Source: Chloroflexi bacterium OHK40 (GTDB lineage Bacteria > Chloroflexota > Chloroflexia > Chloroflexales > Chloroflexaceae). From it: a stretch of 52,645 bases of DNA. Where the stretch lies: the NCBI GenBank assembly GCA_004367505.1, contig SFCB01000215.1, positions 1 to 52,645 on the forward strand, written 5' to 3'. The translations under genes and the position numbers were made by a program. Positions 28,602-36,178 of the stretch are shown here, piece after piece. Below the pieces are notes generated by a model. The model was not told the DNA's origin, did no database searches, and saw nothing but the letters and a program-made list of their open reading frames with translations. Every line of letters begins with the position of its first letter. Positions within the stretch are counted from its first letter, which is position 1.

Positions 28602-31600
28602 TTAGCGCACCCCTTCAAGCCGGTCCTCGAGGTCGGCGTGGAGCTCACGTAGCCGCTCCAGCGTTGCCTCGTCGGTTTGCCAGAGCCCACGGCTGCTGGC
28701 CTCTAGCAGGCGCGCAACCGCGCCACGGGCCGCCTCGGGGTTGGCTGCCTCAAGGCGCTGGCGCATGGCGTCGTCGAGCACGAAGGTCGCGGCAGCCCGG
28801 TCGTAGACCCAGTTGTCCACCGCGCCGGTGGTGGCGCTCCAGCCGAGCATATAGGTAAAGCGATGGGCGATCTCGGCGGCGCCGTTGTGGCCGTGGCGAA
28901 GCATGCCCTCGTACCATTTGGGGTTGAGGAGCTTGGTGCGGTACTCCACCCGTAGCACCTGCTCCAGGCTCTGTACCTTTGTCTCGGCCGTAAAGCTCTC
29001 CACATAGCTGAGCGCCACCGGCCCGCCGCTGGCCCGCTCGGCGGCGGCCTTGAGCGCGCCGGAGTAGCCGTAGTAGTGCTGCATGTCGGTGAGGCCATAC
29101 TCCACGCTGTCGATCTCCTGGGCCACCCGGCCCACCGTGCCGAGCAGCGCCCGCAGCACCTCGGGCCGGGCCTGCCCACCCTGTTCGCCGCCCGTCGCGA
29201 AGGCGTTGCGCTTGATGAACAGCTCCTCCAGTTCCTGGCGCTCTTGCCAGGCCCCGCCCTCGATCGCCTCGTCCACATCGGTGCCGTAGGTGCCCTCGGC
29301 CTGGGTGAAGATCCGGGCGGTGGCCGCCTCCCAGCCCTGGCCGGCGGCCAGCATGGCCTGTACGTGCTTCCGAATGTAGTTCTGATCCTCCGGCTCGTCG
29401 GCGGACGCGGCCTCCCGTACCAGGCGGTCGAGCAGGTCGATCGTGCCGGCGAAGGTATCGCGGAAGATCCCCGAGGCCGACATCAGCACGTCTACGCGGG
29501 GGCGTCCGAGCTCGGCGAGGGGGATGAGCGCGTAGCGGCCCACTTTGCCCTGACCGTCCTTTACCGGCCGCGCGCCGATCAGGCCGAGCACGACGCCGAT
29601 CGACTCCCCCTTCGTCTTGATTGCGTCGAGGCCCCAGAGCACCTGGGCGATCGTCTCGGGGTAGGCGCCGCGCTCGGCCAGATGGGCCGCCAGCAGGGCC
29701 TCGGCGATCTTCACCCCGCGCTCGAAGGCGCTGTCCGATGGCACCCGGAAGGGATCCAGGCTGTGGATGTTGCGGCCCGTGGGCAACACGGCCAGCCCGT
29801 CGCGGATCAGGTCGCCGCCGGGTGCTGCGGGGATGTAGCCGCCCTCCAGGCCGTGAAGCAGGTGGTCCAGTTCCCGGGTGTTGTCGCGCAGGGCGGCCAG
29901 CATCGCGCGGCCATGGTCGGCGAGTGGGAGTAGATCGGCCTGTGCGGCTTCGAGGTTGAGCCGCGCGGCTACCTGCTCGACGGCCTGGCCCTCCAGGACG
30001 GCCAGGCGCACGAACTCGGCGCAGACGTTCTCCACCCGCTCCCGCAGGCTCAGGGCCTCCGGGTCGCCGGTGCGGGCGGCGGCCAGCAGCGCGCCGTAGG
30101 CGGTGGGGGCCACCGTGGCTCCAGCGTGGCTCACGGGTGGCGCCGGGCGATCGTCGGCGGCCAGGGCCCGCAATACCAGGTCGCCAAGCCCGGAGTTACC
30201 GTCGCGGGGGATCTTGAGCGCCTCGGCGATGAGGGTGAGTTGCTGGTCGGGGGGTGGGGCGCTGCCGAGCACGTGCAGGCTGTCGGTAATCAGGGTGGCT
30301 TCGAGCTCGCGCAGGTAGGCGTAGGCCCGGGAGGCGAAGGCGCCGGGGGGGTCATCGGGACGGGGGGCGAGTTCGGCGTCCAGGTTCAGCAGGGCGATCT
30401 TCTGGCGGATCGCCTCCTCATCCTCTGGCGCGCTGCTTCCCCCGGCCCCACGGTACTCCTCGAGCAGATCCTTGAGGGCCTGGAGCTCTTTGTAGAGTCC
30501 GGCGCGCCCGTAGGGCGGAATGGCGTGGCCGATGATGGTGGCAAAGCCCCGGCGCTTGGCGATATTGGCCTCGGCGGGGTTGTTGATCGGGTAGACGTAA
30601 AAGTTGGGCAGATCGCCCAGGAGCACATCGGGCCAGCAGCGCTCGGTTACGCCCAGCTGCACGCCGGGCATCCATTCGGCGGTCCCGTGCATGCCCAGGT
30701 GTACGATCGCATCGGCGCCGAGCGATTCGGCGATCCACTTGTAGAAGAGGGCGTACTGGTGATGGGGCGTATTCTCCCGGTCGAAGAGCAGCCGCATCGG
30801 GTCGCCGGGCATGCCGATCATCGGCTGCACGCCAATGTAGATATTGCCAAGCTGCATGCCGCCGAGGCGCACCCGGTCGCGGCCAGCCGGGGCGATGTCG
30901 CCGGGGAACTGCCCCCAGCGGGCCAGAATGCGCTCCTGGTCGTGCGGGCGTAGCCAGGCGGCGAAGTGGTCGCGGTCGGCGCTGGGCAGTTCGACCGGGG
31001 GGTGGCCCGGTGGCAGCGCCGTGGGCTCCCCGCGGATGGAGGCCTCCAGGCAGCGCGCCAGCTGGGTCGGGTCTCGCGGGTAGTCGCCCACCTGGTAGCC
31101 AGCCGCCCGGAGCCGGTCGAGCAGGGCGATCAGGCTGGCGGGCACATCGAGCAGGGCGGCGGTGGCGGTGTTGCCCTGGCCGGGGGGGTAGTTGTAGACG
31201 ACAATAGCGAGCTTCCGGGCGTGGTTAGGGGTGCGGCGCAAGCGCGCAAAGCCCCGGGCGAGCCGTCCGAGGCGCGCCAGCCGGTCGGGGGCGGTGGCGA
31301 TCTCCCCGCCACGCATCCCGCCGAGCACCACAGGCGCCACGGCGCCATCCATCTCTGGCAGGGCGTAGAGCATGGTCGCCTGCAACGGGCCGACCCCATG
31401 CTCGCGCCACTGCTCCTCGTCCTGCACGAAGAGCGGTGAGGCCACAATGTAAGGGACATCCAGCCGGGAGAGCAACTCCCGGGCGACGCTGGTGGTGAGG
31501 CCGGCCCTGGTGGAGCCGGCGGGTCCGCCCACGAGTGGGAAGCCCATCGTATTGATCAGCAGGTCAACATCGAGCTTCGTCAGCCACTCTCGCACAACCA

Positions 31601-32474
31601 CGTGACTCTCGATGCCCTGGACGAAGATCGGCAGAACGCGCAGGCCAGCCGCCTCCAGGGCCCGCACCACCTCGTAGTGGTAGGTCGTGCCGCCGATCAG
31701 GTGGCTACGGAAGGAGAGTACGGCCACGGTGCCGAGGGGCTCGGCGGGCCGCACCTGGCCAGCCAGCCTGCGGCCCGCCCTGGCTCGCTCGCGCTCCCAG
31801 GCCAGGTACTCCTCGGGCTTGGCGAAGTAGCGGGGCGCGTCGGGGTGAGCGAGGCCCATCGCGGGCAACTCAACAACGGGGGGCACCTCCAGGCCGGGGT
31901 AGCCGCCATACTCGCGCAGGATCAGCTTGAACATGCTGGCGGTGTTGGCGACGTTGCGGTTGGCCCAGTAGGTGCTCACCATCGTCCAGTTGCGGAAGTC
32001 GGCCAGGCGCTTGCCCGGGAGGAACTTCACCAGCTTCGAGGTGATCTGCTGGAGCTTGACGTAACCGTAGAGGGCATCCTCCTCGCGGCCCCCCACCAGC
32101 AGGCGAGCCACGTTCCGCACCGGTTTGGGCATGCCGCCACCCTTACCGCCCATCGCGTAGCCGCCCACCTTTGTCAGGCGCATCACCTCGGGGAGGCCCT
32201 CAAATGCAAAGACCACTGGCGGGTCGTGGCGCTGGACCATCGGCACCAGCCACTCGGCCGTCTCGGCGAGGGTGATCAGCGAGCTGATCAGGCAGGTGCA
32301 GCGGGCGATGGCCGCCTCGACCTCGCTGGGCCGGCGCTGGATGTCAGCATCCTCGAAGACGTGGAGGCGGAAGGCGGGAACGGCCCGGCGCACCTCGGCT
32401 TCGGCTGCGGCAAAGAGGCCACGGCTGTAGCGCTGCATGCCCAGGACCATCACAAACTCGACTGTGGTAGCCAT
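28602..32474 (-). CDS. bchH: Magnesium chelatase subunit H (BchH/BchS/BchT type)
   Basis: 1290 aa, family length. The N-terminal BchH-specific domain (about 1-165) includes KVGGYAMGGKGGG. Next come GGREEDALYGYVKLQQ, FRNWTMVSTYWANRNVANTASMF and the large CobN/Mg-chelatase domain with HLGMHGTAEWMPG (about 590-605), PINNPAEANIAKRRG and YGYSGALKAAAERA near the end. It is the porphyrin-binding subunit inserting Mg2+ into protoporphyrin IX with BchI and BchD, which are not in the window. The BchH-specific N-terminus argues against cobaltochelatase CobN. Chloroflexi phototrophs carry several BchH paralogues (BchH, BchS, BchT), and which this is cannot be told. The ATG at 32474 fits the promoter at 32539-32511; the frame extends to 32675 without a start signal. 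Confidence 0.92.
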   Translation of the reverse strand: MATTVEFVMVLGMQRYSRGLFAAAEAEVRRAVPAFRLHVFEDADIQRRPSEVEAAIARCTCLISSLITLAETAEWLVPMVQRHDPPVVFAFEGLPEVMRLTKVGGYAMGGKGGGMPKPVRNVARLLVGGREEDALYGYVKLQQITSKLVKFLPGKRLADFRNWTMVSTYWANRNVANTASMFKLILREYGGYPGLEVPPVVELPAMGLAHPDAPRYFAKPEEYLAWERERARAGRRLAGQVRPAEPLGTVAVLSFRSHLIGGTTYHYEVVRALEAAGLRVLPIFVQGIESHVVVREWLTKLDVDLLINTMGFPLVGGPAGSTRAGLTTSVARELLSRLDVPYIVASPLFVQDEEQWREHGVGPLQATMLYALPEMDGAVAPVVLGGMRGGEIATAPDRLARLGRLARGFARLRRTPNHARKLAIVVYNYPPGQGNTATAALLDVPASLIALLDRLRAAGYQVGDYPRDPTQLARCLEASIRGEPTALPPGHPPVELPSADRDHFAAWLRPHDQERILARWGQFPGDIAPAGRDRVRLGGMQLGNIYIGVQPMIGMPGDPMRLLFDRENTPHHQYALFYKWIAESLGADAIVHLGMHGTAEWMPGVQLGVTERCWPDVLLGDLPNFYVYPINNPAEANIAKRRGFATIIGHAIPPYGRAGLYKELQALKDLLEEYRGAGGSSAPEDEEAIRQKIALLNLDAELAPRPDDPPGAFASRAYAYLRELEATLITDSLHVLGSAPPPDQQLTLIAEALKIPRDGNSGLGDLVLRALAADDRPAPPVSHAGATVAPTAYGALLAAARTGDPEALSLRERVENVCAEFVRLAVLEGQAVEQVAARLNLEAAQADLLPLADHGRAMLAALRDNTRELDHLLHGLEGGYIPAAPGGDLIRDGLAVLPTGRNIHSLDPFRVPSDSAFERGVKIAEALLAAHLAERGAYPETIAQVLWGLDAIKTKGESIGVVLGLIGARPVKDGQGKVGRYALIPLAELGRPRVDVLMSASGIFRDTFAGTIDLLDRLVREAASADEPEDQNYIRKHVQAMLAAGQGWEAATARIFTQAEGTYGTDVDEAIEGGAWQERQELEELFIKRNAFATGGEQGGQARPEVLRALLGTVGRVAQEIDSVEYGLTDMQHYYGYSGALKAAAERASGGPVALSYVESFTAETKVQSLEQVLRVEYRTKLLNPKWYEGMLRHGHNGAAEIAHRFTYMLGWSATTGAVDNWVYDRAAATFVLDDAMRQRLEAANPEAARGAVARLLEASSRGLWQTDEATLERLRELHADLEDRLEGVR

Positions 32475-32510
32475 ACGTCCCCCGTTGGCAGGCGCTCGTG
32501 GATGGCCTCT

Positions 32511-32539
32511 ATTATCGCCAACTTGCGCGCGATGTACAA
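32511..32539 (-). promoter_or_regulatory. Promoter of bchH
   Basis: Reading leftward: TTGTAC (32539-32534), exactly 17 bp, GATAAT (32516-32511). The transcript would start near 32504 with a leader of about 30 nt. Confidence 0.55.
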
Positions 32540-32558
32540 TCTTTGCATCCAATGTACA
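32533..32558. promoter_or_regulatory. Paired TGTACA palindromes overlapping the bchH -35
   Basis: Two perfect TGTACA palindromes (32533-32538 and 32553-32558) have centres exactly 20 bp apart, two helical turns. The first overlaps the -35. This is a good layout for a repressor or activator binding as a dimer of dimers. The regulator is unknown. Confidence 0.5.
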
Positions 32559-32611
32559 CGGCGTGTGCGGGGGCACAGAACGGGAGCTCGGGGGGTCGGC
32601 ATCGTCGCAAC

Positions 32612-32655
32612 AGGGGATCGCGACTACGGCGCCGGTGCCATAGCCGCGATCCCCT
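32612..32655. terminator. Stem-loop between the MscS-like gene and bchH
   Basis: AGGGGATCGCG (32612-32622) and CGCGATCCCCT (32645-32655) form a perfect 11-bp stem with a 22-nt loop. It lies after the MscS-like stop and upstream of the bchH promoter, so it probably terminates the former. Confidence 0.5.
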
Positions 32656-32683
32656 GGGTCGCGCCAGACGGTCACGCTAGCGC

Positions 32684-34459
32684 TTAATCCCCCGGTTGGG
32701 CACGGGGCGCCGCCCCGCCCTGGGAGCCCTGCAAGCGCTGCTCGGCACCGAGGGCACGCGTGTTTGCCTGGCGGTTCCGGATAGCCTCGAAGAAGCGCTC
32801 AGCCTCGCGACCGGCCACCTCGCGCGCGCCGAGGCCGAAGGCGAGGGCGAACGCCACGGCGATGGCGCCGAGCGTGAGCCCGAAGGCCAGATTGATGATC
32901 TCGTTGGCGAGGCCCATCTGACGTAGTGCCATGGCGCCAGCGAGGGCGATCACGGCCACGCGGGCTGTGAGGGCGAGCAGACCCGCCTGGCTCACACCAC
33001 TACGCACGATCGCTCTGGCTGCGGCATTCGCGAGGAAGAGGCCGACTGCAAAGATCGCCAGGCCAAGCAGGATATGCCCGATCAGCGTGGTGAACTCAAC
33101 CACCAGCGCCGTGAGTGTCACGAAGCCCAGCAAATTGAGCGCAGCGATCGTGGCAAAGAGCATTACCCCAACCATAACGAAGGCGCCCACCCAGTCCGAG
33201 GGCGTGCTGCGGGCCGCTGCCTGAGCCGCCTGGCGTGCCTCGGGGGTGGTGGCTTCGACGCGCGCCATCTGCGCGGCCCGCGCCGCCTGCTCAATCTCCG
33301 GCGCCTGGGTGAGGCCCAGGCGATTGAACAGCCGGTCAAATCCCAGCCCTCGCACGAGGTTCGTTACCAGCCCCGCGAGCAGCCGCCCCACGAAGAAGGC
33401 GATCGTCAGCACTAGCGCGGCGGCGAAGAGGTTGGGCAGCGCCGTAAGAAAGCTGTTCAACATCTGGCTGGCCGGCGCGGTGATGGCCTCGATCTGGAGG
33501 GCATTGAGGCCGGCGATCAGCACCGGCACCAGCATGAGCACATAGACGATCAGCCCGAGCAGGCCCGAGAGTTGCTGCGAGCCCAGCGCGCCGCTGAGGC
33601 CCACCCGCGCGCCGAGCCGGTCGGCGCCGGCCGCAGCCGCAAGATTCGTCACAATACGCTGCACTACCCGCGCCACGAACCAGCCCACCAGCACAATCAC
33701 GGTGGCGGCCAGCAGGTTCGGGAGATAGGCGAAGAGCTCATTGAGCAGGGCCTGCACCGGCTCTAGCAACCCCTGGAGATCAAGGGTGTCGAGGATGGCC
33801 GGGAGGAAGAGCAGGAAAACCAGCCAGTACACCGCACTGGCCAGGGTGTCGGAGAGCAGCCCCCGCTGCACAACGCGCTCCACGCTGCCTGGCGCTGTGG
33901 TGCCACTGTACCCACCGATGGTATTGCCAGTGCTCGGGTCGCGCTGCAGCATGTCCGCCAGTTCACGGGCACTGCTCTGGCCAGGGGCCGTATCGGTGCG
34001 CACCTGCTCACCGATACGCTGGTCGATCCGCGCGGCCTTCAAGGCTCGCGAGACAATCAGGCGCAGGCCGGTCGCGATGAGCCAGGCAATCCCCAGCAAA
34101 ATCAGCGCGCCGAACATATTCGGCAGAAAGGCGAAGAACTGGTCAAGCATGCTGTTCAGTGGTGTGGTGATTACCGTCAGGCTCAGCGCCTGGAAGAAGG
34201 CAATCAGTACAAAAACCATGATCAGCCAGAACACCGCCGAGGCAACCCAGCGCTCGGTTTGCAGGCTGCGGGAGGCGCCGTCGCCGCTGATAGCCCCCGC
34301 CAACCGGTCGTCGAGCCGCGTGCGGCTGAGGATGGCCCGCACCGCTGCGGAGATGATCAGCGCTACCAGCCAACCAACTATCAGGATGGCGAGGGCTGTG
34401 AGGACGTTTGGCACCCATGTGCGTACGATCGTGGCGATCTGGTCGAATGTTCCTTGCAT
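32684..34459 (-). CDS. Conserved-TM-helix (MscS/CmpX-like) membrane protein
   Basis: 591 aa with about twelve transmembrane helices arranged as repeated units of a long helix followed by an amphipathic segment (VPNVLTALAILIVGWLVALII, LPNMFGALILLGIAWLIATGL, LPNLLAATVIVLVGWFVARVV, LPNLFAAALVLTIAFFVGRLL). This is the TM_helix (PF05552) pattern of mechanosensitive-channel-like proteins. The beta domain and vestibule of true MscS are absent, so channel function is uncertain. The first ATG is used; its ribosome site is poor. It is divergent from the mutase gene, and a hairpin separates it from bchH. Confidence 0.82.
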   Translation of the reverse strand: MQGTFDQIATIVRTWVPNVLTALAILIVGWLVALIISAAVRAILSRTRLDDRLAGAISGDGASRSLQTERWVASAVFWLIMVFVLIAFFQALSLTVITTPLNSMLDQFFAFLPNMFGALILLGIAWLIATGLRLIVSRALKAARIDQRIGEQVRTDTAPGQSSARELADMLQRDPSTGNTIGGYSGTTAPGSVERVVQRGLLSDTLASAVYWLVFLLFLPAILDTLDLQGLLEPVQALLNELFAYLPNLLAATVIVLVGWFVARVVQRIVTNLAAAAGADRLGARVGLSGALGSQQLSGLLGLIVYVLMLVPVLIAGLNALQIEAITAPASQMLNSFLTALPNLFAAALVLTIAFFVGRLLAGLVTNLVRGLGFDRLFNRLGLTQAPEIEQAARAAQMARVEATTPEARQAAQAAARSTPSDWVGAFVMVGVMLFATIAALNLLGFVTLTALVVEFTTLIGHILLGLAIFAVGLFLANAAARAIVRSGVSQAGLLALTARVAVIALAGAMALRQMGLANEIINLAFGLTLGAIAVAFALAFGLGAREVAGREAERFFEAIRNRQANTRALGAEQRLQGSQGGAAPRAQPGD

Positions 34460-34597: not shown

Positions 34598-36178
34598 ATG
34601 ACGAGCAGCAGCGCCGAGCGTACCACTGACTCGGGCCTCACGATAGCGCCCGTGTACCGCGCGGCCGACGCCGGCCCTCCCCAGCCCGACCCGGGGCAGT
34701 ATCCCTTCACCCGGGGGATTTACCCCACCATGTATCGTGGCCGCCTCTGGACGATGCGCCAGTACGCCGGATTCGCCAGCGCCCGCGAGAGCAATCAGCG
34801 CTATCGCTATTTGCTCCAGGCAGGCCAGACGGGTCTTTCGGTGGCCTTTGATCTACCTACCCAGCTCGGGCTCGACTCCGACGATCCTCGGGCCGAGGGC
34901 GAGGTGGGCAAGGTGGGCGTGGCGATCGATAGCCTCCGCGATATGCAGACGCTCCTCGACGGCATCCCCCTGGATCAGGTGACGACCTCGATGACGATCA
35001 ATGCCCCGGCGAGTGTGCTGCTGCTGCTCTATGAGCTGGTGGCCGAGAGCCAGGGCGTGAGCCCCGATAAGATCGGCGGCACCATTCAGAACGATATCCT
35101 CAAGGAGTACGCGGCCCGTGGCACCTTCATCTTCCCGCCTCGCCCCTCCATGCGCCTGATCACCGATACCTTCGCCTACTGCCAGGAGCGCATCCCCAAC
35201 TGGAATACGATCAGTATCAGCGGGTACCACATCCGCGAGGCCGGGGCTACGGCGGTGCAGGAGATCGCCTTTACCCTCGCCGACGGGATCGCCTATGTGG
35301 ACGCGGCGGTGCGGGCCGGGCTCGATGTGGACGCTTTCGCGCCCCGGCTCTCCTTTTTCTTTGTGGCCAACCCCAACTTTCTGGAGGAGGTGGCCAAGTT
35401 TCGCGCTGCCCGCCGGCTCTGGGCCACGATTATGAAGGAGCGCTTCGGCGCTACTAAACCTGCCAGCATGATGCTGCGCTTCCACACCCAGACATCGGGT
35501 GCCTCGCTCACTGCCCAGCAGCCGCTCAATAATGTGGTGCGCACGACGATCGAGGCCCTGGCGGCAGTGCTCGGCGGCACCCAGAGCCTGCACACGAACG
35601 CTTACGACGAGGCCCTTGGCCTGCCAACGCAGGAGTCAGCGACCCTGGCCCTGCGTACGCAGCAGATCATCGGCTTCGAGAGTGGCGTGGCCGATACCGC
35701 CGACCCGCTCGCCGGGTCCTATGTGGTGGAGGCGCTTACGAATGAGCTTGAGCGCCGTGCCCGCGATCTGATCGCCGAGATCGACGCGATGGGTGGGGCA
35801 GTGGCCGCCGTCGAAAACGGCTGGGTCCAGGAGCAGATCGCCGACTCGGCTTATGCCTTCCAGCAGGCCATCGAGTCGGGTGAGCGGATCGTCGTTGGCG
35901 TGAACCGCTTCGCCGAGGCTGGTACGGCGCCGCCGCCGATCTTCAAGCCCAACGAGGCTGTGGCCCGCGAGCAGGCCGAGGCGCTGGCCCGCCTTCGCGC
36001 CGAGCGCGATGGTGCGGCGGTGCAGGCGGCGCTGGCCACGTTGCGCGAGGCCGCCACGGGTACGGCCAATGTGCTGCCCCCCATGCGCGAGGCTCTGCGC
36101 CGCTACGCTACGATCGGCGAGGTGTGTGGGGTGCTTCGCGAGGTGTGGGGCGAGTACCGGCCTGAGGTGCGCCTCTAG
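34598..36178 (+). CDS. Methylmalonyl-CoA mutase large (alpha/catalytic) subunit
   Basis: 526 aa. Only the TIM-barrel substrate domain is present: [16 protein letters not shown] (Tyr46 equivalent to the active-site Tyr), [29 protein letters not shown] (His211) and the [18 protein letters not shown] block. The C-terminal cobalamin-binding domain of fused mutases (DxHxxG) is missing, so a separate small subunit must exist elsewhere. It interconverts methylmalonyl-CoA and succinyl-CoA, a step of propionyl-CoA metabolism and the 3-hydroxypropionate bi-cycle of Chloroflexus relatives. No meaB or epimerase gene is adjacent. Isobutyryl-CoA or ethylmalonyl-CoA mutase are closely related alternatives. 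Confidence 0.9.

Follow-up and report, generated by a model that had tools for sequence, protein, structure and literature searches.

The DNA upstream of bchH in a green filamentous bacterium likely resembles a landing site for CarH, and the bchH promoter analyzed here is probably a working CarH operator, from which CarH would repress transcription in the dark and be released by light. CarH senses light by means of vitamin B12 and is known mainly from the control of carotenoid genes, and bchH acts at the first committed step of bacteriochlorophyll synthesis. The putative operator consists of three 11-bp units (minus strand, 32541-32573) ending just before the -35 hexamer, in the window, i.e. 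the whole stretch of 52,645 nucleotides of Chloroflexi bacterium OHK40 that was analyzed. CarH is a MerR-type repressor in which adenosylcobalamin (AdoCbl) serves to sense light. In the proposed mechanism AdoCbl would be cleaved on illumination, the CarH tetramer would fall apart and bchH would be transcribed. We infer the binding of CarH at bchH, the repression and the role of light and AdoCbl as signals from what was observed, namely the array, its partial conservation, one sole CarH homologue in which the photoreceptor residues are present, and related repeats at two further genes, as the same 22-bp pair before carH and with two units before crtB. To our knowledge, it is not settled how pigment synthesis is switched in green filamentous anoxygenic phototrophs. 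With a named regulator, a recognition rule and a short list of targets, the proposal is directly testable.

The bchH gene, encoding magnesium chelatase subunit H, occupies 28602-32474 on the minus strand with its ATG at 32474-32472 and matches TIGR02025 with 1391 bits (cut-off 829); its orthologues in family members share 66-80% identity. A mechanosensitive channel gene (32684-34459) lies upstream in the same direction, and therefore the promoter faces bchH alone. Between the two genes, at 32611-32656, two 23-nt inverted arms are 87% complementary with zero loop, where no terminator-like match was called, and the gene next but one from bchH (34598-36178) encodes a methylmalonyl-CoA mutase N-terminal domain, a B12 enzyme family. 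On the minus strand of 32440-32700 the only promoter-like match is TGTACA-16-GATAAT, which ends at 32511. Its -10 hexamer GATAAT (32511-32516, minus strand) was found by both promoter scan and alignment, and reading the hexamers as TTGTAC-17-GATAAT is equally possible. The sequence-only reading had reported two identical TGTACA palindromes 20 bp apart over this promoter, which was borne out: the copies at 32533-32538 and 32553-32558 are 20 bp apart from start to start, lie 59-84 bp upstream of bchH and are the sole two in the window, and the inner one is the first hexamer (-35) of the called promoter. Their number is ordinary because 2.5 are expected in the window; a pair with a gap of 10-18 bp appeared in 0 of 100 shuffles.

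Read on the minus strand, the order before bchH is CCCCCGCACAC GCCGTGTACAT TGGATGCAAAG A TTGTAC A...GATAAT. Unit 1 (CCCCCGCACAC, 32563-32573) is a pseudo-repeat of the form CnnACA, unit 2 (GCCGTGTACAT, 32552-32562) is a full TnnACA repeat in 11-bp register with its neighbors and holds the outer TGTACA, and unit 3 (TGGATGCAAAG, 32541-32551) is a TnnAAA pseudo-repeat. The array thus reads CGCACA / TGTACA / TGCAAA in exact 11-bp steps, with one full repeat and two pseudo-repeats. The -35 region TTGTACA (32533-32539, minus strand) contains the inner TGTACA and lies 2 bp off this register. The TGTACA pair is made of one full repeat unit (outer copy) and the -35 region (inner copy). Judging from the aligned sequences, conservation applies to an array of TnnACA units phased at 11 bp, of which only the outer copy is a part. 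CarH operators of Thermus thermophilus, Bacillus megaterium and Myxococcales are described, in the accessible parts of the sources, as tandem 11-bp repeats nnnnTnnACAn with pseudo-repeats tolerated, placed at or beside the -35 (PMC9304148, PMC8156234). The window array likewise comprises tandem 11-bp TnnACA repeats with pseudo-repeats, and it abuts its promoter: the units end at 32541 and the -35 starts at 32538 or 32539.

Scored as three successive TnnACA units, the 150 bp before bchH reach 10 of 12 points under a rule that was chosen after the array had been seen. This score occurred in none of 1960 overlapping genomic tiles on one strand (3/1960 on either strand) and in 4 of 5000 shuffles (12/5000 on either strand). 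When periods of 7-16 were compared on the window array, 11 scored best, with 9 and 10 one point less. In the same genome the rule gives 12 for an array before a short-chain dehydrogenase (SDR) gene, 9 for carH, 8 for a pufC-like gene and 7 for crtB, against a background of 27/1960 tiles that reach at least 9 on either strand; most relatives whose bchH is preceded by a close 22-bp pair also score 9. Therefore, the rule backs the window as well as the SDR array, and the other targets rest on the pair and its conservation. That it fails to single out carH, pufC and crtB speaks against the CarH reading, as does the deviation of units 1 (CGCACA) and 3 (TGCAAA) in the window.

An alignment of ten bchH promoters from eight distinct genomes showed which of these positions are kept. 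GCAC of unit 1 is invariant; 22 bp on, in unit 3, which aligns with TGCACA or TGCAAA beside the -35 of the relatives, TG is invariant and CA nearly so, and the -35 and -10 follow. In the -35 the TTG is invariant and the full TTGTACA was found only in the own genome and in G030/W4_035, while in the -10 ATA-TA of GATAAT and the adjoining bases are invariant. This pattern defines the conserved element as TGCACA-N16-TGCA(C/A)A placed against the -35. None of the other aligned relatives carries TGTACA at the outer position, where one of six columns (T) is invariant. Accordingly, the suggestion that TGTACA with a 14-bp gap is the recognition unit did not hold. Most relatives with the site keep units 1 and 3 and vary the middle one, unlike the CarH systems described. 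In the parts of PMC9304148 available, one dimer of the Thermus protein (CarHTt) contacts repeats 1 and 3, which could explain why these two units are conserved and unit 2 is variable.

We scored 25 bchH upstream regions, the own one included, for TGCACA-N16-TGCACA (the 22-bp pair). On the bchH strand, 8/25 regions hold it exactly or with a single mismatch (4/4 in group g5, 2/5 in g6, 1/1 in g7 and 1/1 in g12), and three more, among them the window, have it with two mismatches. In three regions (g10) the best pair is on the opposite strand, and in the remaining 11/25, including 3/3 of g4 and 3/5 of g6, it is absent within two mismatches. The Chloroploca-like genomes (g4) keep the promoter with one half-site by the -35, and in Viridilinea an 11-bp pair takes the place of the 22-bp one (TGCACATGGGATGCAA). 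In Chloroflexus, as judged by eye, the upstream TGCACA also lies within a hairpin resembling a terminator. Three named genomes of the Roseiflexus group gave TCCACA/TGCACA, TCCACA/TCCACA and TTCACA/TGTACA as TnnACA-N16-TnnACA, matches that carry little weight.

These gaps raise the question whether the window array matches by chance or is what remains of a decayed site, with a promoter that is constitutive or controlled elsewhere. Two of its three units deviate, 11 of the 25 regions lack the pair, and the two mismatches of the window's own pair (CGCACA, TGCAAA) are a level seen in 16/1094 tiles of 150 bp. Against this stand the rarity of the three-unit score and the alignment of the site with the pair of sister genera at nearly equal distance to the -35. 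We consider such an origin unlikely.

The TGTACA copies may also belong to a genome-specific element read by another regulator, either a tandem 20-bp repeat (16 nt, with plus-strand ATGTACA ends) or an inverted TGTACA-N14-TGTACA pair. The two copies can be extended into a direct repeat of 16 nt (75% identity) with a period of 20 bp, which amounts to roughly two turns of the helix, and into an inverted repeat of 11 nt (82%). However, the outer TGTACA occurs in no aligned relative, in which the invariant parts are GCAC (unit 1) and TG (unit 3), and TGTACA-N14-TGTACA is found at one place in the whole 6.93-Mb genome. The genome search that had been proposed for this pair near other pigment genes therefore returned the bchH site alone and no enrichment, and we dropped the pair as a regulon motif. 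With gaps of 5-25 bp there are 10 TGTACA pairs genome-wide, five of which (C65 three times, C99 twice) are one 28-bp repeat, a dispersed small repeat with the sequence TGTACAGCCCCAGTGGGGCGTCTGTACA that has a shorter form at C61 (L025-L030 for C65, C99 and C61). Four single pairs are left, so that a lone pair is by itself unremarkable. Among those elsewhere, both inspected by eye, one N7 pair lies inside a long coding frame and the other N7 pair near frames that resemble transposase and toxin-antitoxin genes, and neither was retained as a candidate. Taken together, we regard a 20-bp element of this kind as quite improbable.

The putative CarH operator has a probable cognate protein in the same genome. 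MerR_1 (PF13411, 11 matches) and B12-binding (PF02310, 10 matches) share one frame at a single place in the genome. The protein encoded there (P0001, 315 aa) scores above the cut-offs of three Pfam families (MerR_1, B12-binding_2 and B12-binding), and its match among solved structures is CarH 5c8d (E=7.8e-36), which we take to be Thermus CarH. The W-x9-EH and ExHxxG motifs are present in 29/29 orthologues of P0001. The carH gene lies upstream of crtB (phytoene-synthase family, Pfam SQS_PSY) on the same strand, and both this neighborhood and the MerR and B12-binding architecture with W-x9-EH are shared with known CarH systems. What differs is the target, here bchH and perhaps pufC, in a phototroph. 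Many family genomes also encode a second protein with a CarH-like B12-binding part but no MerR domain, mostly in frames of about 690-930 aa, and the matches of P0001 to it start at about residues 93-109.

A match to P0001 with at least 70% identity was found in 32 family genomes, 30 of which were taken as loci, and one of these was dropped (17 bp upstream). Around a TTGAC -35, all 29 remaining carH promoters carry an exact TGTGCA-N16-TGTGCA, within 350 bp in 28 loci and at 380 bp in G028. The reverse complement of this pair is TGCACA-N16-TGCACA, i.e. the bchH element. A more distant CarH homologue (G007, 53%) has the first half of the promoter pair only. In the Roseiflexus group, TGTGCA-N16-TGTGCG was seen by eye in 6/6 regions upstream of the carH copy closest to P0001, and the regions upstream of the second carH copy lack it. 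The 18-kb carH locus holds TGTACA at two positions (L023, 9650 and 15603), both in open frames and unpaired.

The phased repeats may be real and belong to a different regulator that has carH, crtB and bchH as its targets. The genome has 11 MerR_1 matches, and the tie between CarH and the motif is drawn from sequence. Nevertheless, the 22-bp pair is strictest at the promoter of carH itself (29/29) and fits the published CarH unit in length and sequence, which makes a different regulator very unlikely. A LitR-type MerR regulator might instead act on TGTACA-N14-TGTACA in the manner of Pseudomonas PmlR2, whose system resembles the one proposed for bchH in its TGTACA half-sites, one of them over a -35, and in a regulator of the MerR-B12 family. 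According to the available portion of PMC9758184, PmlR2 and PplR1 bind T(G/A)TACA-N12-TGTA(C/T)A, with one PmlR2 site over the -35. The gap at bchH is 14 and not 12 bp, so that the site differs from the published one, and the pair is not conserved. Besides, the only exact TGTACA-N12-TGTACA of the genome (C33:4756-4779, L024) lies, as judged by eye, between SDR-like and TetR-like genes and away from pigment genes, and the sole MerR-B12 protein found carries the W-x9-EH of CarH. LitR-type control is thus the least credible of the alternatives weighed and hardly to be expected. Control by PpsR was rejected: as the sequence-only reading had correctly noted, the bchH promoter looks regulated and the spacing is unlike the PpsR site (TGT-N12-ACA has 0 matches in the 3026-bp bchH locus, 0.21 expected), and its suggestion of another regulator agrees with PpsR-CrtJ (TIGR02040) exceeding the cut-off in 0/37 genomes including the own one, all 37 of which gave weak matches (maximum about 58 bits, cut-off 275).

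The exact 28-bp motif TGCACA-N16-TGCACA occurs at two places in the own genome (G000), four in G029 and three in G032. In G000 these are carH and the perfect array of three 11-bp units before the SDR gene; in G032 they are bchH, carH and one more (C106). Two of the G029 places and one of those in G032 lie at no recognizable target. With at most one mismatch the motif has 18 (G000), 21 (G029) and 11 (G032) places genome-wide, and read backwards 4, 4 and 5. We also counted the distances between TGCACA copies (7-36 bp, n=145) in eight fully listed genomes, which include two pairs of close sisters and are thus not independent. The distances pile up at 11 bp (13), 22 bp (16) and 33 bp (19), and other distances average about 1.9 when not divisible by three and about 6.9 when divisible by three (33 left out). 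The latter excess is as codon structure would give, and the 33-bp peak is partly such a codon effect.

Repeats of TGCAC at 11 bp are found at six places in the own genome (one for the pattern read backwards), three of which (C33, C130 and C145) are away from recognizable pigment genes. They include sites before crtB and the pufC-like gene, each with two units, and the three units before the SDR gene. Among the loci listed, two-unit repeats at crtB are present in g1, g5 and G030 (g12) and in none of g4, G029, G028, G012, G001 and G016. Upstream of the pufC-like gene, which is so called for its reaction-centre cytochrome domain (Pfam CytoC_RC, scanned for G000 only), TGCAC(C/T)TTTTTTGCACA was found in three genera (G000, G030 and G003), at G000:C203:23806-23822 (L203) and in L186 and L188. 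The enrichment test near pigment genes failed for the TGTACA pair; the phased motif does come back at the carH promoter and, with two units, before crtB and the pufC-like gene. In other genomes an 11-bp repeat precedes a glutathione peroxidase gene, and 22-bp pairs lie upstream of folE and of a DUF92 operon. Such wider targets beyond bchH and carH are less certain.

A tentative extension, which we hold to be possible and rather doubtful, is that CarH of the Chloroflexaceae might serve as a light-and-B12 switch for the whole of phototrophy beyond carotenoids, directly repressing bchH, pufC, crtB, photo-oxidative defence genes and carH itself. For the main proposal too, published expression data from mats are mixed evidence on a light-released repressor: they partly fit bchH and speak against pufC. 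In the accessible text of PMC8004040, the puf (pufLMC) and chlorosome genes in a C. aggregans mat peak at night. The maxima of its bch genes differ by group and fall at midday, in the afternoon, at 18:00 or at 05:00; those of its three bchH paralogues, any of which may correspond to the bchH of the window, fall at midday or in the afternoon. This source also cites Yellowstone mats, where the majority of bacteriochlorophyll transcripts from such bacteria have their maximum at night, and C. aurantiacus, in which bacteriochlorophyll is made in the light whether oxygen is present or not and is suppressed in the dark with oxygen (both cited in PMC8004040). CrtJ/PpsR with AerR in purple bacteria is comparable in controlling photosynthesis genes with a B12-binding, light-responsive partner, as far as the consulted part of PMC9144470 describes it, but with CarH the sensor and the DNA-binding protein would be one chain. 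If the extension is true, one protein does the job that PpsR/CrtJ and AerR share in purple bacteria. If CarH control of bchH is true, such bacteria can tie the making of their main photosynthetic pigment directly to both light and B12, B12 status is linked to a competing tetrapyrrole pathway, and light controls bacteriochlorophyll through B12 by way of two different proteins, CrtJ-AerR in one case and CarH in the other. Among the papers listed in the literature searched, which mostly comprised work outside subscription journals, no title or beginning of an abstract made this link between CarH and bacteriochlorophyll in such bacteria.

Two of the additional sites were located more closely. The perfect three-fold 11-bp repeat of the own genome, TGCACAAACAT TGCACAGGTAT TGCACA (G000:C268:48765-48792; L127, 1501-1528), stands directly before the SDR gene, which is divergent from a PAS/STAS gene and lies about 11 kb from carH; by eye, an SDR gene with a preceding 11-bp repeat is also present in G003 (C121) and G019 (C9). 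In G003:C62 (L155, 3227-3254) an intergenic TGCACA-N16-TGCACA lies about 310 bp upstream of folE (GTP cyclohydrolase I), and this site is present also in G018:C105.
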